From Paenibacillus sp. NAIST15-1 (GTDB lineage Bacteria; Bacillota; Bacilli; Paenibacillales; Paenibacillaceae), in assembly GCF_001894745.1 (NCBI RefSeq), contig NZ_BBYF01000002.1:186001-250000 (forward strand): a stretch of 64,000 nucleotides of DNA. Reading direction: 5' to 3'. The notes beneath the pieces were generated by a model. That model had not been told where the DNA came from, searched no databases, and worked only from the letters and a program-made list of their open reading frames with translations. Positions within the stretch are counted from its first letter, which is position 1. Every line of letters begins with the position of its first letter. Below, in pieces: positions 37,318 through 57,609 of the stretch. A program made the position numbers and the translations under genes.

Positions 37318-37578
37318 ATGGAAAATAAAGAGACTATTAAACAATTAAGCTTCGAGGCGGCGATGGATAAGTTGGAAGAGATCGTTGCCAAACTAGAAAG
37401 CGGAGACGCTCCTCTTGAACAATCAATTGAGTTGTTCCAAGAAGGAATGATGCTCTCTAAGCTTTGTTCAGAGAAGCTGGAACAAGTTGAACGCAAGATA
37501 GAGATGGTAACCGAGCAGAACGGCGAATGGAAGCGTCAGCCGTATGCAACAGAGGAGACGGGTGATTCGATTGATTAA
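37318..37578 (+). CDS. xseB: Exodeoxyribonuclease VII small subunit
   Basis: The 86-residue helical protein matches XseB (LSFEAAMDKLEEIVAKLESG, LEQSIELFQEGMMLSKLCSE). It binds XseA helices and is needed for activity. ATG 37318 lies 17 bases after the AAAGGAG found inside xseA, so reinitiation from xseA probably drives translation. It overlaps ispA by a few codons. Confidence 0.95.
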   Translation: MENKETIKQLSFEAAMDKLEEIVAKLESGDAPLEQSIELFQEGMMLSKLCSEKLEQVERKIEMVTEQNGEWKRQPYATEETGDSID

Positions 37579-38485
37579 TTATCAATCGGCCGGAGTATTT
37601 GCCGATTATGTGAAGCAGCAGGCAACTCGGATTGAATCGATACTGCCGAAGATGCTGGACAGCAAGCGCAATACTCCTGAGCCGCTAACACAATCGATGC
37701 ATTATTCGTTAATGGCAGGCGGCAAGCGGCTGCGGCCAGTATGTGTGTTAATGGCCTGTGATAGCTTAGGGGGCAACACACGAGCAGCGGAGCCGGTTGC
37801 ATGTGCCATCGAGATGATTCATACGTACTCATTGGTACATGATGATCTGCCTGCAATGGACAATGATGATCTACGCCGTGGCAAGCCGACCAATCATAAA
37901 ATCTATGGTGAGGCCATGGCAATTCTCGCTGGAGACGGTCTGTTGACGCAGGCTTTCCACTGTATTGTGCAGAGCACACGCCAGCATGGTGTTGCAGCTG
38001 AGGTATCCTTGTCTATTGTAGAGGAATTGGCAGAGTATGCAGGGATGAACGGGATGGTCGGCGGGCAGGCTGCTGACATGCTCGGTGAGCAAGGGATTAC
38101 GACGTTGGATCAGCTGGAATACATCCATCTGCATAAGACAAGTGATCTTATTGTATGCTCCCTTCGCGCAGGCGGGCGGATTGGTGGCGCATCGGAACAG
38201 CAGCTGCAAGCGCTGACGACCTATGGTTATAAGCTTGGGCTCGCCTTTCAAATTCAAGATGATATTTTGGATGTCATCGGAGATGAAGCCATGCTGGGTA
38301 AGCCGAAGGGAAGCGATGAGAAGAGCGGGAAGGTTACTTATCCGTACTTCATCGGCCTTGAAGAATCGAAACAGGAAGTGGAACGCTTGACTGAGGAAGC
38401 GAAGGCTGCAATTGCGAATGCAGGGTTCCAAAAACCTGAGCTATTGGTTGGCATGGCAGATTATTTGATGAAGCGAGACCATTAA
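37571..38485 (+). CDS. ispA: Farnesyl diphosphate synthase (polyprenyl synthetase)
   Basis: The 304-residue enzyme condenses isopentenyl and dimethylallyl diphosphates to farnesyl diphosphate, the precursor of undecaprenol and quinone tails. The first Asp-rich motif is HDDLPAMDNDDLRRGKPTNH, the second is FQIQDDILD; GGKRLRP and MVGGQAADM are also typical. The start is uncertain: TTG 37571 is 12 bases and GTG 37562 three bases from GAGGAG. TTG gives an N-terminus closer to Bacillus YqiD. The next gene is the OLE RNA, then oapA and dxs, placing two isoprenoid enzymes around it. Confidence 0.95.
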   Translation: MINYQSAGVFADYVKQQATRIESILPKMLDSKRNTPEPLTQSMHYSLMAGGKRLRPVCVLMACDSLGGNTRAAEPVACAIEMIHTYSLVHDDLPAMDNDDLRRGKPTNHKIYGEAMAILAGDGLLTQAFHCIVQSTRQHGVAAEVSLSIVEELAEYAGMNGMVGGQAADMLGEQGITTLDQLEYIHLHKTSDLIVCSLRAGGRIGGASEQQLQALTTYGYKLGLAFQIQDDILDVIGDEAMLGKPKGSDEKSGKVTYPYFIGLEESKQEVERLTEEAKAAIANAGFQKPELLVGMADYLMKRDH

Positions 38486-38510
38486 TTGGCGAGTATTTAG
38501 GCACTGTTTA

Positions 38511-38519
38511 TGATATAAT
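38511..38519 (+). promoter_or_regulatory. Extended -10 promoter of the OLE RNA / oapA unit
   Basis: TGATATAAT matches TGnTATAAT exactly, 26 bases after the ispA stop. A -35 at 17 bases is poor. Predicted start is near 38526. Confidence 0.75.
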
Positions 38520-38525
38520 AGGCCT

Positions 38526-38905
38526 TGCGTAGAGTGGTGCAGTATTCTAGTCGGCCTACCAACGCTGAAGGCGGGCCTAAAAATTCGCTAAAGGGCACGG
38601 CCAAAGAACGCATGAATCGTATGCCGTATGAAATCTGGCTTGCAAAAGAGGCTAAGGGTTGGTTCAGGGCTGCCCGAGGAAAACTCCTAGACTGTTCACT
38701 GGCGTGAAGCTTCTTAAGGATTATAGTGTGGACTAAGTGGTAATTCAGTCTGGCGATTGGCGACAACGTCAAGGCGCTCTTAATTGGAAACGGCCTGCTC
38801 GGCGACGAGGAGGCGAGCATCTGGGAAAACCTACTTGACCTAAGCCACAGCGTTTACTTTAGAAGTTGCCACTCTTAACTTTACGTAACTGATCAGACAG
38901 TTCTA
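38526..38905 (+). ncRNA. ole: OLE (ornate, large, extremophilic) noncoding RNA, compact form
   Basis: The 448-base gap between ispA and the OapA gene has no credible protein frame but shows rich secondary structure. A closing pair AGTGGTAA (38736-38743) with TTGCCACT (38866-38873) encloses hairpin TGCTCG/CGAGCA (38796-38819). AGGA/TCCT (38677-38688) and AACTG/CAGTT (38887-38902) form further hairpins, and AGGCC near the 5' end can pair with GGCCT copies at 38553 or 38573. OLE RNAs in Firmicutes are known to lie directly upstream of oapA, next to ispA and dxs, and this locus matches gene for gene. OLE RNA binds the membrane protein OapA and is linked to stress and Mg tolerance. The predicted RNA of about 380 bases is shorter than the roughly 600 I recall for the class. 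Confidence 0.85.
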
Positions 38906-38933
38906 ACACATAAAGGATGGAACATCACATACA

Positions 38934-39578
38934 ATGAAATTCTCTTTCAAACATTCCGTTCGGTGGAGCGTATTTATTTTCATCGTCACATTTGCTCTAG
39001 CTGCTATTTTTTCCGTCGTATCGACTTCGATGCTGGAGGGAGTAGGCTGGGGCATCGGGATGGTGATCGTGCTCCTACTCGTGCTCATCGGAGTGTTTTT
39101 TGATATGATGGGGTTATCTGCAGCGGCAGCGAAGGAGACACCTTTTCACGCCATGGCTTCTGAGAAGGTTGCTGGCGCGAAGCAGGCGATCGCAATCGTT
39201 CGTAACGCAGACCGATTCTCCAATTTCTGTAATGACGTGAACGGCGATATGACTGGAGTAATCAGTGGGTCGGCCACAGCAATAGTCGTTACGAACTTGT
39301 TATATTCGATGGATGCTGACTCCGCAGTAATGAAGACGGTAACGAGCGTTGTCTTCACAGGACTCGTATCAGCATTGACGGTTGGCGGGAAGGCACTCGG
39401 AAAATCCTTTGCTATTTATTACGCCACTCCGATCGTCCTGCTAATTGGGAAGTGTTTCTACGTGTTGGAGACGAAGTTCAATATTTCATTCTTCACCGTT
39501 GAAACGCAGCAAATCGAAACAACGAAAGCGAGGGAAATCCCGTGCTGCTCGAACAGATTAATCAACCTAGCGACTTGA
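38934..39578 (+). CDS. oapA: OLE-associated membrane protein OapA
   Basis: The 214-residue protein has about four membrane helices (near 12-30, 40-58, 108-122 and 135-175). It carries a conserved segment [32 protein letters not shown] with a DxxxD motif at Asp101-Asp105. This region resembles the DUF21/CNNM transmembrane fold. OapA binds OLE RNA and brings it to the membrane. The start ATG 38934 is about a dozen bases after AAAGGATGG, 30 bases beyond the predicted RNA end. Its last 12 codons overlap the dxs start, so expression with dxs is coupled. Confidence 0.88.
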
Positions 39579-41443
39579 AGCAGTTGCCTAAGGAGCAACT
39601 GGAGCCGCTAGCGGCCGAAATTCGTCAATTCTTAATTGAAAAGCTGGCAGTGACCGGAGGTCATCTAGCATCTAACTTGGGGATTGTTGAGCTAACGCTT
39701 GCCCTGCATTATTACTATGACAGCCCGAAGGACAAAATGTTATACGACGTTGGCCATCAAGCCTACGTTCACAAAATATTAACAGGACGCAAGGATCAGT
39801 TCGATACATTGCGCCAATATAAAGGTTTATGCGGCTTTGTGAAGCGTGCAGAGAGCGAACACGATGTATGGGAAGCCGGACACAGCAGTACGTCTTTGTC
39901 CGCCGCAATGGGGATGGCATTGTCCCGTGACCTGCAAGGTCAGGATAATCGGGTAGTCGCAATCATTGGAGACGGTGCGCTCACAGGCGGTATGGCGCTG
40001 GAAGCATTGAACCATATCGGGCATGAAAAGCGCAAGTTGATGGTTGTGCTGAATGACAACGAAATGTCCATTGCGCCAAATGTAGGAGCATTACATAATT
40101 ATTTGTGTAAAATTCGCTCTGACCGCAACTATAAAAAAGCCAAAGAAGAAGTTGAACAGCTGCTCAAAAAAATTCCGGCTATTGGCGGTAAGCTGGCTAA
40201 AACGGCAGAACGCGTGAAGGACGGACTGAAATACCTAGTCGTCTCCGGCATGCTGTTCGAAGAATTCGGCTTGAAATATTTTGGCCCTGTAGACGGTCAT
40301 GATATTGATAAGCTCCTGGACATTTTCCAGCAGGCAGACCGTATCGATGGACCGGTTCTCGTCCATGTTGTAACCCGCAAAGGGAAAGGATATTCACCAG
40401 CTGAAGCCGATTCCCATAAATGGCATGGAGCAACACCTTATAAGATTGAATCCGGCCAGCCCCTTAAATCAGTGGGCACGCCGAATTACACCGATATCTT
40501 CAGTGATGTGCTCATTGAGCTCGCTGAGCAAGACGAGCGAATCGTGGCAGTAACACCTGCAATGCCAGGCGGATCAGGACTCTTGAAGTTCGAGAAGCTG
40601 TATCCGAACCGGATGATTGATGTAGGTATCGCAGAGCAGCATGCAGCAACGATGTGCGCTGCTATGGCTATGGAAGGAATGAAGCCTGTATTTGCGGTAT
40701 ATTCAACCTTCCTGCAGCGAGCGTACGATCAGGTTGTACATGATATTTGCCGTCAACAAGCTAATGTCATCTTTGCAATTGACCGAGCGGGCTTCGTAGG
40801 CCCAGATGGGGAGACGCATCAAGGGGTATATGATATACCATTCTTGCGTCATATCCCTAATATGGTCATTATGATGCCGAAGGACGAGAATGAGCTTCGT
40901 CATATGATGAAGACGGCTGTTGATTATGACGCAGGCCCGATTGCCGTTCGCTATCCGCGTAATGCGGTTGTAGGGGTACCAATGGACACCGAATTGAGCC
41001 CGATTCCAATAGGAACGTGGGAAACCGTTCGGAATGGAGATTCAGCGGCTGTTCTGGCTATCGGTCCGATGGTGCAGGTTGCAGAGGAAGCAGCAGAGTT
41101 GTTGCGAAAAGAAGGCATTCGTATTCGAGTGATTAATGCGAGATTTGTTAAGCCGCTTGATGACGAGATGCTGCATCAGCTAGGGAAGGATCGCATTCCG
41201 GTAATCGTGTTGGAAGAAAGCTCGGCAATCGGAGGTTTAGGTAGTGCTGTACTGGAATGGTATGCTAACCATGGCGTTTACGATATGAGAGTGAAGCCAA
41301 TTGGGGTTCCTGATTGCTTCGTCGAACATGGTAGCATTAAGGAACAGCGGAATGAAGTTGGCTTAACGCCTGAACGGGTTGTGAAAGAAGTTCATTCGAT
41401 GTTATTCGCAACAGGCGGCAATAATCGGTTGACTCGGGCTTAA
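39542..41443 (+). CDS. dxs: 1-deoxy-D-xylulose-5-phosphate synthase
   Basis: The 633-residue thiamine-diphosphate enzyme makes DXP from pyruvate and glyceraldehyde 3-phosphate, the first step of the MEP isoprenoid pathway. The TPP motif is [20 protein letters not shown] followed by NDNEMSI. The transketolase middle domain has DVGIAEQHA and [18 protein letters not shown]. The start GTG 39542 follows GAGGGAAA and lies inside the oapA 3' end. The gene complements ispA upstream of the OLE/OapA pair. Confidence 0.97.
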
Positions 41444-42446: not shown

Positions 42447-42902
42447 ATGGGTGATCGTTGGATCATGGGATTGATCGGAATTGGTTTGGCTGTATGGATT
42501 GGATATGCAATACGACATTATATGCGAACACCTGAAGCGATGGAGAATGTGTGCTTATCCGAGAGATATCCGCAGGATGAAGAGATTGTCGCATTGCTTG
42601 AGTCAGCGGGTTACGAGATCATTGGCGGCAAGTATTTTGTGCCAATTCAGATTCAGATGAACGGAGAAGAGCTAGAGTCCACGAAATTGTGGATTGATAT
42701 GGTCGTCAAACGGGGCGAACAATGGTATATTGTTCGTATCGTACGCGAACGGATGCAGCTCGATTGGAGCGCCAGTGCAATTCGCAGACATTGGGGAGCT
42801 TACTTCGCGGCATATCCTGAATGTGATGGGCTGCTTGTCGTTGATATGGCAGAGCGGCGAATTCGCATGCTTCATATGGAGTTTGGGGAAGCAGAAGCTT
42901 GA
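42447..42902 (+). CDS. Membrane-anchored protein of unknown function
   Basis: The 151-residue protein has one N-terminal membrane helix (GLIGIGLAVWIGYAIRHYM) and a cytoplasmic alpha/beta domain. That domain begins with LLESAGYEIIGGKYFVPIQI and continues with LWIDMVVKRGEQWYIVRIVRE and LLVVDMAERRIRMLHMEFG. The strand-rich pattern with acidic and Lys/Arg residues is faintly like an endonuclease-type fold, but I cannot assign a family. ATG 42447 follows an AGGGGTG site. It sits between yqxC and argR. Confidence 0.72.
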   Translation: MGDRWIMGLIGIGLAVWIGYAIRHYMRTPEAMENVCLSERYPQDEEIVALLESAGYEIIGGKYFVPIQIQMNGEELESTKLWIDMVVKRGEQWYIVRIVRERMQLDWSASAIRRHWGAYFAAYPECDGLLVVDMAERRIRMLHMEFGEAEA

Positions 42903-45343: not shown

Positions 45344-46810
45344 TTGAACCCCAACGTCAAACGACTGCTTGGCCTAATGCTCGTCATTCTTGTATGCTTA
45401 AGCACTACAACAGCAACCTTTCGCACGTATGCGGCGCTGCCGAATCAACTGAGGTTATTTGAAGGACAGCAAACGAAGCTTGATCTCGTGATGCCTGTTC
45501 AGGCTTCAGCGACGGTAGATCGACCGGATATTTTGCGTGTGAACGGCGAGAATCGACCTACATTCCAATTATCACCGAATCGTCCAATTTCATTACAGTC
45601 AGCCCAATCTGGTCAAGCAGAGCTGAAATTGAAGCTGTTCGGAGGCATTCCACTCAAGACATTGAAAGTGAATGTAGTTCCGAATTTGCGTGTCATTCCC
45701 GGAGGCCAAACGATTGGCGTCAAAGTCAAATCAGCAGGCATCCTTGTTGTCGGCCATCATCTTGTGAAGGTTGAGGGAGAACGCAAAGTATCTCCAGGTG
45801 AAGAAGCAGGTGTTCGCCTTGGTGATCTCATTACGAGTATGAACGGAAATCGATTGAATGATGTAAGCAAGGTTGCGGATATCGTGAAGCAGGCTGGCGA
45901 GAACAAACGTCCACTTGATCTTGTAATTCGGCGCGGCGATACTGAAGTGAAAGCTCAGTTGACCCCCGCGTACGATCAGGAGGACAAAACGTGGCGGCTA
46001 GGCTTGTACATCCGAGATTCAGCAGCCGGAGTAGGAACTTTGACGTTCTATGCTCCAGACCAAGGAGTGTATGGGGCGCTTGGACATATCATTACGGATA
46101 TGGACACGCAGACTCCGATCGTGGTGGGGCAAGGTGAAATTGTCCAGTCCCATGTAACTTCCATTTCGAAAAGTCAAAATGGAGAACCAGGTGAAAAACG
46201 TGCTCAATTTGTGAAGGAAAGCCGTGTTTTAGGCAATATCGAACGCAATACGCCATTTGGCATTTTTGGTAAGATGGTATCTAATCCAGAACATAGTGTA
46301 TATAAAGAACCGATTCCTGTTGCATTCCGCGAAGAGGTTAAGGTGGGACCTGCCGAAATGCTGACCGTGGTGAATGGTCAACAAGTGGAACGATACAAGA
46401 TTGAAGTCGTCCATGTTACGAAGCAATCAGCACCTGCAACCAAAGGGATGGTTATCCGCATAACAGATCCGCGGCTGCTGCAAAAAACCGGAGGCATTGT
46501 GCAAGGGATGAGCGGCAGTCCGATTATTCAAGATGGCAAATTGATTGGTGCAGTTACGCATGTGTTCGTCAATGATCCAAGCTCAGGCTATGGATGCTTT
46601 ATCGAATGGATGCTGCAGGATGCTGGTGTTGTCCTGGCTTCACCTCAGTCAATGAATGAACAAGGGAAGGTTCACGTTCAACGTGATCCTTCTTTTTCTT
46701 TTACATCACGACGATCGCATCAATCTTCAGGATATGTCGAATCGATACGAATGAATACGAAATCTGTTGGATCGTTGGACAAATCATTAATTATAATAGA
46801 AAAATTTTAA
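45344..46810 (+). CDS. spoIVB: SpoIVB serine peptidase, with unusual C-terminal tail
   Basis: The 488-residue forespore signalling protease activates SigmaK by cleaving SpoIVFA and BofA. It has an N-terminal membrane helix, a PDZ domain (about 115-205, ILVVGHHLVKVEGER to LDLVIRRGD) and the S55 peptidase domain. The catalytic His lies in YGALGHIITD near residue 245, and the Ser in VQGMSGSPIIQDG near residue 388. The normal end appears to be EWMLQDAG near residue 430. About 55 residues follow that look noncoding, and the DNA there holds a terminator hairpin, so the original stop has probably been lost. Start TTG 45344 follows AAAGGAGTG. Confidence 0.93.
   Translation: MNPNVKRLLGLMLVILVCLSTTTATFRTYAALPNQLRLFEGQQTKLDLVMPVQASATVDRPDILRVNGENRPTFQLSPNRPISLQSAQSGQAELKLKLFGGIPLKTLKVNVVPNLRVIPGGQTIGVKVKSAGILVVGHHLVKVEGERKVSPGEEAGVRLGDLITSMNGNRLNDVSKVADIVKQAGENKRPLDLVIRRGDTEVKAQLTPAYDQEDKTWRLGLYIRDSAAGVGTLTFYAPDQGVYGALGHIITDMDTQTPIVVGQGEIVQSHVTSISKSQNGEPGEKRAQFVKESRVLGNIERNTPFGIFGKMVSNPEHSVYKEPIPVAFREEVKVGPAEMLTVVNGQQVERYKIEVVHVTKQSAPATKGMVIRITDPRLLQKTGGIVQGMSGSPIIQDGKLIGAVTHVFVNDPSSGYGCFIEWMLQDAGVVLASPQSMNEQGKVHVQRDPSFSFTSRRSHQSSGYVESIRMNTKSVGSLDKSLIIIEKF
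46667..46704 (+). terminator. Terminator-like hairpin inside the spoIVB reading frame
   Basis: AAGGTTCACGTT and AACGTGATCCTT form a 12-pair stem with one mismatch and a one-base bridge, followed by CTTTTTCTTTT. It occupies codons 442-454 of spoIVB. Confidence 0.75.
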
Positions 46811-48081: not shown

Positions 48082-48900
48082 TTGGTAGGTTTACTTAAAT
48101 TTACTTTCATCTTCACATTGCCAATATCAATAGTTTGTCTATTATTGCTTTTTTTCGGTAATCATCATGATGTTCCTTTTTCTTTTTATGTAATAACTTT
48201 TGCTTCTGTGCTAATACCTATTTTTAGCAGATTTAAATGGAGGCAGCTTGAAGCAGCGGAAATCGATAATAATCGCACTATTACAACTACAGTATTAAAT
48301 CGGGCACCTGAATTTAAAGCTTCTCATCATTTCGAATCGGTGGGCGCAGAAATGTCATTACTCGTTGATGAAAAACAACAACAAATATGCTTCTGCCATA
48401 AAAACAGTTTTAGACCTCAAATATACAACTACCGAGATATCGTAAAGTCTGAATTGCTTCTTGATGAGAACAATATCTCAACGATGCATAGAGATCACTG
48501 TGGTCATGATAATGGAGGGGGACACTCTTTACTAGGCTATAGATGTAATAGACGTATCAAAAAAATTGAGTTGAGCATCATAGTAGATGATATGTATCAA
48601 CCCGTGTATAAAATTAAATTTCTTAACGATGGTTATGGGCTTCTTGAGAATGAATCTGAATATAAAAGGGCTTTTGAAGAGGCATATCAATGTCATCAGC
48701 TAATTAATGTGTTAATGAAACGTGGATTAGACTCCGTTAAGCCAAATGAGACCGTAAAGTCGACAGGGACTACAACTGTAATAGAGCCAACGTCTACAGT
48801 ATTAGTGGCTGATGAGCTTCGCAAGCTTTCTCAATTGAAGGATGAGGGCGTTATAAGTCAAGAGGAATTCGATGCCCAAAAGAAGAAATTAATTGGTTAG
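48082..48900 (+). CDS. Membrane protein with C-terminal SHOCT domain, atypical base composition
   Basis: The 272-residue protein has two N-terminal membrane helices (about 5-26 and 31-48), a central domain I do not recognise, and a C-terminal SHOCT module (VADELRKLSQLKDEGVISQEEFDAQKKKLIG). SHOCT modules are short oligomerisation elements found in many membrane and phage proteins. The central domain has several His and Cys residues (ICFCHKNSF, MHRDHCGHDNGGGH), possibly metal-binding. Start TTG 48082 follows AAGGGGAGAGAG. The coding DNA is clearly more AT-rich than its neighbours and sits between two look-alike terminators, so it is probably acquired. Confidence 0.78.
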   Translation: MVGLLKFTFIFTLPISIVCLLLLFFGNHHDVPFSFYVITFASVLIPIFSRFKWRQLEAAEIDNNRTITTTVLNRAPEFKASHHFESVGAEMSLLVDEKQQQICFCHKNSFRPQIYNYRDIVKSELLLDENNISTMHRDHCGHDNGGGHSLLGYRCNRRIKKIELSIIVDDMYQPVYKIKFLNDGYGLLENESEYKRAFEEAYQCHQLINVLMKRGLDSVKPNETVKSTGTTTVIEPTSTVLVADELRKLSQLKDEGVISQEEFDAQKKKLIG

Positions 48901-51364: not shown

Positions 51365-54300
51365 ATGAATTCGTTGATTCGATTTTCAATGAAGAATGTG
51401 GCTGCGGTGTTCATTATCGTAGCAATGCTGTTCGGGGGAGGTATCTATGCGTCGACGGGCTTGAAAATAGACAACATGCCAGACGTTTCCATCCCGTATG
51501 TATTGGTGACTGCACAATATGCAGCACCCCCTCAGGACGTAGTGGAACAGGTTACGAAACCGATTGAGAAGAAGCTCTCCGGCATGGAAAGAATCAAGTC
51601 GATATCTTCCACATCCAGTGACCAAACAGCGTCCATTCTTATCAGGTTTGAAGAAGGGGTGGATACTGATCGGAAGAAGGCGGATATAGAAAGCTTGATC
51701 CAAGAAATAGCGTTCCCATCGGGTGTAGAACGACCGCGTGTATCCACATTTGGGGTAGCCTCCATCCCTTCCTACTATTTAGCGGTATATGGGAAAGAGG
51801 GGGTAACGCAATCTCAATTAGAGGAGCATTTCACCAAGACGATTAAGCCGGGATTTCAAGCATTACGAGGCTTGGATCATATGGACGTGATCGGTGATCG
51901 AAGTACACATCTGAGTATAGGACTCCTTCCAGATAGGCTTCGATCCTATGGGTTAACGCCTGCTCAGGTATCAGAAGCCGTCCGCAACGCTTTGGCATCA
52001 GGTCCGGCAGGAACAGTGGAATTGGAGGGGAATACGCTGCTTGCCCGCATGAACAACGGATTAACTAGTGTCAAGCAACTAGAGGAAATTGCTGTGCAAT
52101 CTCCTCAGGGGGATACGATCCGATTGACGGAGCTCGGGAAGATCACTGAGATCTCGGAATCCAAGTTCATCGCGAGGCTGGATGATCAGCCGGCTATCGG
52201 TATTTTGCTATATAAGGCGAACGGAGCTAACGCGGTTGAATTCTCTACAGGTGCCGATCGTTTGATGAGCAAGTGGGAATCAGAACTTGCAGGTGTAACC
52301 TTCAAGAAGGTCTACAATTATGCTGACGAAGTGAAGCAATCCATTGGCGGGCTTGTCCGGGAGGGATTAGTTGGTGCACTGCTTGCCTCTCTCATGATTC
52401 TGGTTTTTCTGAGAAATATGCGAATGACCTTAATCGTGCTCATATCCATTCCACTCTCCGTGCTTATTGCCCTATTGCTGATGAAATGGATGGATATCTC
52501 CCTTAATATTATGACGCTCGGCGGCATGTTTATTGCGATAGGCCGTGTGGTCGACGACAGTATTGTCGTCATTGAGAATATATATGCCAAGCTGTATCGG
52601 GCTGAGGAACGGAATGAATCCGTTATCGCGCTGGCGACGAAGGAAGTAGCCAATGCAATTACGTCATCTACGTTAACAACAGTGGGCGTATTTGCACCGA
52701 TCGGCATGATCAGTGGAGCAGCGGGGCAGCTGTTCCGTCCTTTCGCAATTACATTGGCCTGTGCTTTGATGGCATCACTGCTCGTGGCCCTGACTGTTAT
52801 CCCGATGCTGGCGAAGCTGCTCGTACTGAAGCAGGCTAATGTGAAGGGACATGATGCTGGAGAGCACAAGCCATCCAGAATTACGACCGGCTATCGCAAG
52901 CTCTTAGTGTGGTCCCTCAATCATCGGATCAAGACATTGTTCATCTCAATTCTGTTGTTTATCGTCACAATGGTTGCGCTTGTCCCACAGCTTGCCTTTA
53001 CCTTAATGCCAGAAGGGACACCGCCGCGTCAGTTCTTCTTCACCATTAAGCTTCCTTATGAGAATTCCTTGAAGGCGACAGATAATGTGATGAAGGAGAT
53101 GGAAGCGGAGCTTCGCGCTGCTAAAGACGCACAGAATAAGCCGCTGTTCACGTTCATTGAGACGCTGGTCGGGTACGCAGGCGATCCGAATGCGATGCCA
53201 TACATGGCCCAAATCTATACGGAAGTAAATGAAGAGGCTAATGTGGAGCAAGTAAGACGTGAATATAAAGCCAAGCTGGAAGCATATATTCCCGCTGGAT
53301 CGGAGCTGGATACACGGACATTGACAGGGGACACCAGTGCAGCGCCGGATTTTGTATATGTGTTGTCTGGTGAAGATGCAGTTCAGCTAAGAGAGGCAGC
53401 GGCAATTATCAAGCAAGAAATGATCAAATTCCCTGAGTTGTCGGAGATCAAAGATTCGTTAAGCGAAGCTTCCTCTGAAGTGGTGATCGATGTCGATCTG
53501 CGGAAAGCGAGACAATTCGGACTAACACCTGCTATCGTCCAGGGCACACTGCAGACGTGGCTGTTCCAAGATAAGATTGGCGAGTATCGGTACCAAGAAG
53601 GTCTGTTGTCCACGGTAGTAGAGACGGAGAAGGGGTTGAGTGGTGATCTGAGCGCGGTTGGGCAGATTCAACTGAGAACACCGACTCAGGAAACCATTTC
53701 AGTTGCGGATATCGCTACGATTAAACGAGTGAAGTCCCCAGCTTCCATTAAGCGAGACAATCAGAAACAGGTCATCAATGTTACGGCGAAATTAAATGGA
53801 CAGAACAAAGGCGGCATTAGTGCACAAGTAGCAGCCTCCTTAGATCTGATCCAGCTGCCAGACGGGGTTGGACGATCCGTGTCGGGCATAAGTGCAGATA
53901 TTGGAGACAGCTTTGGACAGTTATTCATAGCAATGGCTGCGGCAGTGTTTGTCGTGTACTTGATTATGGTACTTACGTTCGGCAATGCGACTGCTCCATT
54001 TGCAATTATGTTTTCCCTGCCGTTTGCAGCTATAGGCGGTGTGCTTGGTTTGATTGTTACGAATGAATCGATTAATATTACCTCCTTAATCGGTTTCATG
54101 ATGTTGATCGGCATTGTAGTGACGAATGCCATTGTGTATATCGATAAGGCGCAGCAGCTGCGAGAAGCCGGACAGGATGTAAGGAGTGCGTTGATAGAAG
54201 CGGGTATATCCCGTTTGCGGCCTATCATCATGACGGCAGGAGCAACCATTATGGCGCTGCTTCCACTTGCATTTGGATTCGGCCACGGTACGCTTATATC

Positions 54301-54478
54301 CCGCGGATTGGCGGTTGTTGTAATTGGCGGCTTGACGGTATCCACATTATTAACGCTTGTGGTTGTTCCAATTATGTATGATATGATAGCTCGGCGTAAA
54401 AGAAACAAGAACCAGTTTCTTGATCAACAAGGGAATGGAGCAGCGCCGCTAACAGAAGGGAAGGAGACCTCATCATGA
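51365..54478 (+). CDS. RND-family efflux transporter (AcrB/SwrC type)
   Basis: The 1037-residue protein has the full RND architecture: helix 1, a large loop, helices 2-6, helix 7, a second loop and helices 8-12. The proton-relay pair is in GRVVDDSIVVIENIY near residue 396. Gram-positive homologues such as SwrC/YerP of Bacillus subtilis export lipopeptides and cationic compounds; the substrate here is unknown. ATG 51365 follows GGAGGAGGAAG. The adaptor gene overlaps its stop by four bases. The two-component genes immediately upstream probably control it. Confidence 0.95.
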   Translation: MNSLIRFSMKNVAAVFIIVAMLFGGGIYASTGLKIDNMPDVSIPYVLVTAQYAAPPQDVVEQVTKPIEKKLSGMERIKSISSTSSDQTASILIRFEEGVDTDRKKADIESLIQEIAFPSGVERPRVSTFGVASIPSYYLAVYGKEGVTQSQLEEHFTKTIKPGFQALRGLDHMDVIGDRSTHLSIGLLPDRLRSYGLTPAQVSEAVRNALASGPAGTVELEGNTLLARMNNGLTSVKQLEEIAVQSPQGDTIRLTELGKITEISESKFIARLDDQPAIGILLYKANGANAVEFSTGADRLMSKWESELAGVTFKKVYNYADEVKQSIGGLVREGLVGALLASLMILVFLRNMRMTLIVLISIPLSVLIALLLMKWMDISLNIMTLGGMFIAIGRVVDDSIVVIENIYAKLYRAEERNESVIALATKEVANAITSSTLTTVGVFAPIGMISGAAGQLFRPFAITLACALMASLLVALTVIPMLAKLLVLKQANVKGHDAGEHKPSRITTGYRKLLVWSLNHRIKTLFISILLFIVTMVALVPQLAFTLMPEGTPPRQFFFTIKLPYENSLKATDNVMKEMEAELRAAKDAQNKPLFTFIETLVGYAGDPNAMPYMAQIYTEVNEEANVEQVRREYKAKLEAYIPAGSELDTRTLTGDTSAAPDFVYVLSGEDAVQLREAAAIIKQEMIKFPELSEIKDSLSEASSEVVIDVDLRKARQFGLTPAIVQGTLQTWLFQDKIGEYRYQEGLLSTVVETEKGLSGDLSAVGQIQLRTPTQETISVADIATIKRVKSPASIKRDNQKQVINVTAKLNGQNKGGISAQVAASLDLIQLPDGVGRSVSGISADIGDSFGQLFIAMAAAVFVVYLIMVLTFGNATAPFAIMFSLPFAAIGGVLGLIVTNESINITSLIGFMMLIGIVVTNAIVYIDKAQQLREAGQDVRSALIEAGISRLRPIIMTAGATIMALLPLAFGFGHGTLISRGLAVVVIGGLTVSTLLTLVVVPIMYDMIARRKRNKNQFLDQQGNGAAPLTEGKETSS

Positions 54479-55752: not shown

Positions 55753-57609
55753 TTGAAACAGAAAACAATTCAGGTCGTGGCTTTTGCCGCTCTATGCGGA
55801 ATAATCATTGGGACTCTTCCGACAGAGGCGCTCGCTGCTGCCACAGATGGGAGCAAGTCAGCTAATACTGCTAATCAAACTACGCATCCTGCCAGCGCAG
55901 CGAAAGCGAAGCCAGTTCAGAAGCAGATACCGAAGGCTCAGGACTACTGGAAGAATAGGTTTGGATTACAGATTGACCTAACCAATGTGATTAATAGCGT
56001 AACGGACAAAGGGAAACAAGTTGCTGCCACCATGAAAATCAAAAATAATTCTAGCAAAAAGCTCCGTCTTCCTGATTATGAATTATATGTACTGATGGAT
56101 AACAAAAAGGAATATGCGATGATATCTAGCGAGAACAGTGCTCGTGTTCTGTCTCAGGGCGAAGTGGTGGAGTGGAGGTTAATGAGTCATGTCGTCGAAG
56201 ATGACATGGCGGCTCCTGTACGATTTATTTGGAAGGAAGTTAATCGGGAGGTATATCCGAAAAAGGAAACAGTCGTTGCGGTAATGGATGTCGTGCAGCC
56301 AGCATGGGAAAATGACTATACTCCAATTACCGATCCCGCCTTGATTAAGGAATGGGGGCAATCCTTCCAACTGCAAGCATTGTCGGATTCATCAATGCTT
56401 ACGTATACGCCTGTAAGCATCATGAAGAGTTCAGGCAAGCCAGCGCAAGTGGCCGAGCGGTTCAAACAAAAGCTGGAGACGGTTCATGTGGTCACTTTCC
56501 GTGTCGTAAACAGGAACAATATACGCGAGAATGTCCCAGACATCAAATTGACGGCATGGTCGAACAACGATCTGTATCAGTCTACAAAACTGGGCAAGGC
56601 TCCTGAATCGCTCATGCCGGGTGAGGGCGCAACGCTGCGATACGCTGTAGAGACAGGTGCGAATACGGTGCTGACAGGATTGAAGCTATTAACCTCGGAA
56701 TCGTTCCTGCCTCCTGGGGCGGCCGATCCGACCAAGGCTGCAACCTATCAAGTAGGGCGATTATATATTAACATTCCGAATCGAGGAACGAGTCAGGTTG
56801 TACCGACCGATTATAAGCTGCGGGATAAGCTGAATTTCAGCGATAGTACGGATTTATTTCCAGAGGGCTTGAATGTCTCAATGGAAGAAGAGACGCTGTT
56901 AGAGAACAAGGAAGCAGGATTCAGAGCACTTCTTCTCCGTTTCAAATTCGAGAATAAGAGCAGTTCCTCAATCACGATCCCATCCTATCAATTCGAACTG
57001 GAAGATAAGGATGGATCTCGATTTGGAGGGGAACGACTTGGTGCCAAGACGGATAAGAAATCACTGCTTCCAAGCGCTGCTGTAGTTGAATCTCACATGT
57101 TCGTGATCCCTGATGGCTCGAAGGAACCGGAGTTACTGCTGCATGTTGTCGACAACCGAGAAGAACAAACCTATCCTTTCATTGTGGATACGTTCCGTTT
57201 CAAGACGAGTTACGATAATACTGGAGACTTGCTGTTTGATATGTATCCATTCCAATTGAAAATTAATGATTGGGGCGGAAGCTGGTTGCGGGGCGGAGCT
57301 GACATGGTTCAATCGTCTTCGTATGCCTTAAGACTGAAACTAAATATTATTCGGGCGAAGCAGGTAATGAGTGAGCCGAACTTATCGAAAATCAAACTGG
57401 AGCTAACCGATCATAGCGGACGGATGCTTGGATCCAAGCTGTTCTCACTTGTTGAGGAGCCACTCTTGAGGGAAGGAGAACAGAACATCATTTTTGAGAA
57501 CATTGATATGCTTGGCTTGAGTTATCCTGTCACGGTCAGCTTCTATGAAATGCTTGATACGCCATATGGACCGGTAAAGCGGTTCCTGGGTAGAGTGATA
57601 AGAAGTTAA
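55753..57609 (+). CDS. Large secreted protein of unknown function in the RND operon
   Basis: The 618-residue protein has a signal peptide (QVVAFAALCGIIIGTLPTEALA) and a mature part rich in beta-strand, with repeated patterns resembling DUF4352/immunoglobulin-like modules. Examples are TMKIKNNSSKKLRLPDYELYV near 93-113, VTFRVVNRNNIRE, and LLRFKFENKSSSSITIPSYQF near 390-415. I see no catalytic motif and recognise no named family. It begins TTG 55753 ten bases after GAGGAG and only 15 bases after the adaptor stop, so it is the third gene of the efflux operon. It could extend the pump across the wall or bind its substrate. Confidence 0.75.
   Translation: MKQKTIQVVAFAALCGIIIGTLPTEALAAATDGSKSANTANQTTHPASAAKAKPVQKQIPKAQDYWKNRFGLQIDLTNVINSVTDKGKQVAATMKIKNNSSKKLRLPDYELYVLMDNKKEYAMISSENSARVLSQGEVVEWRLMSHVVEDDMAAPVRFIWKEVNREVYPKKETVVAVMDVVQPAWENDYTPITDPALIKEWGQSFQLQALSDSSMLTYTPVSIMKSSGKPAQVAERFKQKLETVHVVTFRVVNRNNIRENVPDIKLTAWSNNDLYQSTKLGKAPESLMPGEGATLRYAVETGANTVLTGLKLLTSESFLPPGAADPTKAATYQVGRLYINIPNRGTSQVVPTDYKLRDKLNFSDSTDLFPEGLNVSMEEETLLENKEAGFRALLLRFKFENKSSSSITIPSYQFELEDKDGSRFGGERLGAKTDKKSLLPSAAVVESHMFVIPDGSKEPELLLHVVDNREEQTYPFIVDTFRFKTSYDNTGDLLFDMYPFQLKINDWGGSWLRGGADMVQSSSYALRLKLNIIRAKQVMSEPNLSKIKLELTDHSGRMLGSKLFSLVEEPLLREGEQNIIFENIDMLGLSYPVTVSFYEMLDTPYGPVKRFLGRVIRS

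Follow-up and report, generated by a model that had tools for sequence, protein, structure and literature searches.

OLE is a large and well-conserved RNA for which, to our knowledge, no biochemical function is known. In the 64,000-nucleotide stretch of Paenibacillus sp. NAIST15-1 DNA analyzed here (the window), an OLE RNA had been proposed to lie, along with the gene for its partner OapA, between ispA and dxs in an unusually short form, which raises the question of whether this is a compact OLE in working order or a full-length one that is being lost. The preliminary description of the sequence favored the former and suggested that a reduced OLE that keeps OapA would show which domains are essential.

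The gap ahead of oapA is indeed 448 bases long (38486-38933, with ispA ending at 38485), and the proposed gene order ispA-OLE-oapA-dxs-yqxC-argR-recN holds, with one additional frame of 151 amino acids at 42447-42902. The Pfam scan took in the ispA, dxs, and yqxC-like domains only, and the genes downstream of dxs are those that we take to be yqxC, argR, and recN. Running the Rfam OLE covariance model on the gap, as had been suggested, gave a significant match (Table 1; the gathering score is 50) that covers the model end to end with large internal gaps. The matched RNA is short as claimed, at 371 nt compared with 666 to 673 nt in the genus, and it is the single OLE match in a scan of the whole 6.77-Mb genome. 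The several long-range stems described for the gap are not energetically distinct (z-score, −0.55; 28 of 100 shuffles fold equally well or better), so it is the covariance-model match that carries the case for OLE. That the locus is OLE and OapA by descent is as good as certain; because P5 to P8 and the 5′ strand of P9 are absent, leaving domain 1 (P5 to P9) incomplete, it is an OLE gene by descent and not a whole OLE. The extended −10 promoter element was found exactly as described, and TGNTATAAT is conserved in 13/13 OLE loci of the family in an alignment of the OLE-bearing genomes; since the promoter element is intact, a short transcript is probably still made. Elsewhere in the window, the 151-amino-acid protein between yqxC and argR has no Pfam or NCBIfam match and corresponds to a longer frame of 192 amino acids in Paenibacillus alvei, and a frame of 272 amino acids with a C-terminal SHOCT domain (48082-48900) is unmatched in the syntenic region of P. 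alvei.

TABLE 1 Features of the OLE-oapA locus and its flanking genes (window positions)
Feature	Coordinates	Strand	Basis or remark
ispA, polyprenyl synthetase	37544-38485	+	Pfam
Extended −10 promoter element TGATATAAT	38511-38519	+	Exact sequence match
OLE RNA gene, internally deleted	38518-38888	+	Rfam RF01071, 237.7 bits, E 2.6e-67
P4 hairpin, A-rich loop, retained	38570-38589	+	Model alignment
Deletion junction	38597-38598	+	302 bp of P. alvei missing; one shared C leaves a 1-base ambiguity of the exact point
P9 loop and 3′ strand, 5′ partner strand missing	38599-38651	+	Model alignment, P. alvei comparison
Conserved 3′ domain (domain 2), retained	38676-38873	+	Model alignment; otherwise invariant 38836 changed, giving a non-standard model pair
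Hairpin, presumed OapB-binding region	38786-38814	+	Inferred from published P12.2/P13 assignment
oapA, 214 aa	38934-39578	+	Leaves the P. alvei frame at about residue 189; Asn at position 103, within DxxxD
dxs	39542-41443	+	Pfam

Comparison with the sister P. alvei (G258, strain DSM 29; 82.6% identity across 62.9 kb aligned) revealed that a single continuous 302-bp block is missing from the window OLE, and the blastn alignment of the two is interrupted at 38598 by an equal 302-bp jump. When the P. alvei OLE is aligned to the model, the block comprises P5, P6, P7, and P8 plus the 5′ strand of P9, with its end inside the P9 loop (helix names are those of the papers; the structure line of the Rfam model has none), which leaves the 3′ strand of P9 orphaned. 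By our own count of that structure line, 99 of the 159 consensus pairs belong to the P5-P9 helices. The block was not found anywhere in the genome that holds the window by a search that succeeded in 4/4 relatives used as positive controls. Palindromes in OLE are reportedly bound by OapA, as Block et al. are said to have described in 2011, and our guess is that one of them could be the AUCGAU with which the deleted block begins in relatives.

According to excerpts of the published mapping, the OapC kink-turn lies in J4a/5 and flanking parts (PMC9723947), the bS21 site is located in P6 (PMC12054373), and the OLE dimer is held by contacts at L4, L5.1/L6.1 (twice), and L9 (PMC12265935). Carried over to the window, this mapping suggests that the deletion takes away the kink-turn, the bS21 site, the L5.1/L6.1 sites, and the stem that bears L9, and that L4 stays. 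The hairpin in the retained 3′ domain may, going by the published P12.2/P13 assignment, be the OapB site.

The adjoining oapA gene carries two lesions. The DxxxD motif is at Asp101 and Asp105, the positions previously given, with both aspartates retained, and residue 103 between them is Asn, where 23 relatives have Ile (19) or Val (4). Near its 3′ end the gene is frameshifted, leaving the C-terminal tail with a net charge of 0 compared with +2 to +10 in 23/23 relatives; the basic tail as a hallmark of OapA is taken from these 23 proteins and not from a published source, and the 23 come from the full-length-OLE loci of the family and a scan of named genomes that left aside records close to the window, not from all 127 full-length loci counted below. 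The protein is otherwise well preserved, with 90% identity to the P. alvei OapA, a profile match at an E value of 1.4e-120 (the profile having been built with the window's own sequence included), and none of 42 strictly invariant residues changed. Upstream of the frameshift, 11 synonymous changes and 1 non-synonymous change fall on the window branch (16 and 7 on the P. alvei branch), which, together with the unchanged invariant residues, indicates that OapA was under selection until recently. The overlap of the oapA end with the dxs start, which had been read as tying the complex to isoprenoid synthesis, is real (37 nt) but ordinary in kind: it is 20 nt in P. alvei, and the surplus comes from the frameshift.

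As a control for reading frames, the 63 window ORFs were compared with the syntenic P. alvei stretch; their C-terminal ends agree in 53 cases, differ in 8 (oapA among them), and have no match in 2. We read five or six of these 8 as antisense or other non-gene frames, and the other mismatches include a gene that is split on the P. alvei side and a histidine kinase with a divergent tail. Three genes (45344-46810, 51365-54478, and 55753-57609) are whole in the window; the record of P. alvei DSM 29 shows each of them as two frames, a split that may reflect errors there.

Loss of a protein partner was considered as the cause of decay and rejected, the OapB, OapC/YbxF, and bS21 (rpsU) genes all being present in the genome. 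OapB matches the solved OLE-associated protein B with an E value of 1.5e-25; its gene was located by tblastn with the protein of another genome (G264), and a KOW-domain search of the window genome and P. alvei had not revealed it. Genes for bS21 and L7Ae-family proteins occur in 19/19 genomes of the genus, with or without OLE, so the presence of bS21 and OapC is no sign of a working complex. Replacement by newly gained MpfA-type transporters was likewise rejected, with two CorC_HlyC matches here and two in P. alvei (one of them only in an open frame of 102 amino acids). Across the 19 genomes, CorC_HlyC counts are 1 to 3 in OLE-bearing and 3 to 4 in OLE-less members, which fits the published anticorrelation of OLE with MpfA.

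Is the lesion a recent one? Over the 297 retained OLE bases, 8 polarized changes fall on the window branch and 7 on the P. alvei branch. Of 200 columns that are invariant in the other 13 sequences, which span the retained leader, P4, and 3′ domain, 195 are unchanged in the window; 5 have changed there and 4 in P. alvei, two of these at the same places. The change at 38836, G to T, affects a column invariant in 14 other aligned OLEs and yields a non-standard pair in a long-range stem. Because the retained RNA has changed no faster than that of its sister, the deletion must be recent unless selection still acts on the remnant. Only 2 of the 53 bases in the orphaned P9 strand are different in P. 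alvei, compared with 698 of 1,480 fourfold sites in eight neighboring genes, and this conservation of a strand whose partner is lost favors a recent deletion. As a rough estimate, with small counts and hence a wide range, the deletion would fall within about the last tenth of the period since the two lineages split, assuming neutral evolution of the RNA thereafter.

A survey of relatives placed the window copy in context. OLE matches were found in 13/394 genomes of the family, 38/392 of the order, and 87/398 of the class, or 133 after genomes shared between the sets were counted once; since weak matches do not pass the strict survey filters and the order and class were each searched as a sample, OLE remnants may have been missed. 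Full-length matches account for 127 of the 133, five carry deletions, and one runs off the end of its contig (G417). In the family, 11 of the 13 are full length (666 to 673 nt, 491 to 522 bits), the other two being the window copy and G285 (178 nt). Within the genus, OLE and oapA occur together in 10/19 genomes and are both absent from the other 9, and all nine OLE genes besides the window copy are full length (666 to 673 nt). None of the 12 other OLE-bearing family genomes shares the window deletion; that of G285 is different and larger.

At each of the five deleted loci (the window, G285, G445, G491, and G621), OapA is changed at a conserved site, fragmentary, or absent. In G285, about 120 nt of OLE leader lead directly into oapA, whose product has Trp at Arg94 (Arg in 22/23 relatives, Lys in one). 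This locus (L083 3409-3586), where the leader is joined to the beginning of oapA and that frame is otherwise open, is a case of OapA without an OLE RNA. G445 has an OLE of 395 nt and oapA only as fragments. G491 retains the 3′ half of OLE, and its OapA has Gly at Asp101 and 9/42 invariant residues changed; this count is not extreme by itself (the D101G change is), because an OapA beside a full-length OLE (MAG_DeMMO) has 9/51 changed. For G621, a 74-nt match of 22.9 bits is under the cutoff and perhaps no remnant at all, and oapA was not found there. Outside the survey, Bacillus fonticola (L060 2940-3428) has an OLE of 489 nt (253.3 bits) without P5, adjoined by an OapA with an intact DxxxD motif, so shortening need not make an OLE nonfunctional. 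The B. fonticola OLE is the better candidate for a truly shortened, working one.

We consider it likely that the window holds an OLE ribonucleoprotein in early decay, in which the deletion is combined with the lesions in oapA. The ancestor would have had a full-length OLE RNA/OapA operon, as P. alvei, Paenibacillus apiarius, and Paenibacillus profundus still do. One 302-bp deletion in the window lineage would then have removed P5 to P8 and one strand of P9, and oapA would have acquired a frameshift in the basic tail as well as Asn between the DxxxD aspartates. P4 would be retained in the transcript along with the 5′ leader and the 3′ domain, but the L5.1/L6.1 region would be gone, as would the bS21 site and the OapC kink-turn, and the L9 contact would no longer be presented on its stem. 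With these regions and the L9 stem gone, the remnant RNA should not form the normal complex, and we infer both a loss of function and a recent deletion. Speaking against decay are the unaccelerated change of the retained RNA, the sparing of OapA ahead of the frameshift, the persistence of the OapB, OapC, and bS21 genes, the CorC_HlyC count equal to that of P. alvei, and the shortened OLE of B. fonticola.

An adapted compact OLE, which was the leading idea at the outset, has been given up in that role, because the deletion is private to this genome and cuts P9 in half; with oapA frameshifted and Asn103 placed inside DxxxD, there is also no support for reading the locus as the reduced, OapA-keeping OLE that would reveal the essential domains. 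As a rival to decay, this alternative holds that the leader, P4, and domain 2 (about 370 nt) act with OapA and OapB and that the functions of OapC, bS21, and the dimer are dispensable in this species. The conserved RNA and OapA core, the OapB gene, and the intact promoter would agree with it, as would the absence of P7 and P8 from the published variant 2 OLEs, as described in part of that report (PMC11332333). It is nevertheless unlikely, given the orphaned P9 strand, the oapA tail frameshift and Asn103, the absence of the same deletion from relatives, and the inactivation of OLE by a single base change in the kink-turn in Halalkalibacterium halodurans (PMC9723947). Were it true, a large genome would harbor a minimal OLE that has neither the OapC kink-turn and the bS21 site nor the L5.1/L6.1 and L9 contacts, and the core task of OLE would be independent of the RNA dimer. 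It is very improbable that draft-genome artifacts account for the frameshift and the missing 302 bp. The assembly is a draft of 42 contigs and the missing block is strongly structured, but the junction lies inside an 823-kb contig, the block occurs nowhere else in the assembly in the controlled search described above, and the deletion, the frameshift, and Asn103 would need separate errors; window frames moreover mostly agree with those of P. alvei, and the three genes noted above are split in P. alvei and not in the window.

The order of events might also have been one of suppression, with a harmful change near the DxxxD motif of OapA coming before an OLE deletion that was selected because it disarmed the complex. 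The precedent, going by part of the published account, is the H. halodurans PM1 allele (OapA D100A/D104A), which is suppressed by mutations in OLE, OapB, or OapC (PMC9723947). Asn103 sits between the two aspartates, the deletion removed the kink-turn region, and G491, which lacks the OLE 5′ half, has Gly at Asp101. Both aspartates survive next to Asn103, however; in G285 the OapA change is outside DxxxD (Trp at Arg94), and in B. fonticola there is no DxxxD change. We regard this order as possible though doubtful, and the probability that we give it overlaps with that of early decay, since it is one route to decay.

The window locus was compared with several known systems. OapA has published weak similarity in sequence and fold to the membrane domain of CNNM/CorB/MpfA Mg2+ transporters; it differs from them in its DxxxD motif and OLE neighbor and has no CBS or CorC domain. 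In our data its match to CNNM (PF01595) is 20.4 bits, below the Pfam cutoff of 28.4. For a predicted OapA structure of middling confidence (mean pLDDT, 64.8), in which DxxxD would lie near the start of a helix at residues 92 to 124, the best rows were MtCorB (Foldseek E, 0.033; VIA Z, 9.4; rmsd, 3.2; 129 residues aligned), with unrelated helical chains reaching a Z of up to 8.0. With the full-length OLE (RF01071) and its OapA, OapB, and OapC, the window shares the leader, P4, the 3′ domain, the promoter, the place between ispA and dxs, and the adjoining oapA; it differs by the 302-bp internal deletion, the oapA tail frameshift, and Asn103. The locus is useful to OLE specialists and is not a new kind of system, and the deleted loci (the window, G285, G445, G491, and the weak G621 remnant) are natural tests of RNA-protein interdependence. 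A literature search, with most subscription papers outside its scope, found no report of this OLE allele.

The closest published comparison is OLE variant 2, which, as far as the consulted part of Fernando and Breaker 2024 (PMC11332333) describes it, lacks P7 and P8 and scores 235 to 310 bits when not truncated. The window copy likewise lacks P7 and P8, and its score would fall within that bin, although it comes from the Rfam model and not from the authors' own. It additionally lacks P5, P6, and half of P9, and its form is private to one genome among those searched, whereas a form shared by a clade is what we ourselves took as the mark of an evolved variant. A match of variant-like size and score can therefore come from a full-length gene that was broken recently, here in a genome of 6.8 Mb, and because such a gene can resemble a variant, lists of variants need to be checked for clade-shared structure. 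The same part of that report sets short variants aside, suggests genome reduction for the commonest, and describes variants as widely distributed but most frequent in gut clades with reduced genomes, in which OapB and OapC are mostly missing (PMC11332333); the window copy, in contrast, resides in a 6.77-Mb genome that has both.
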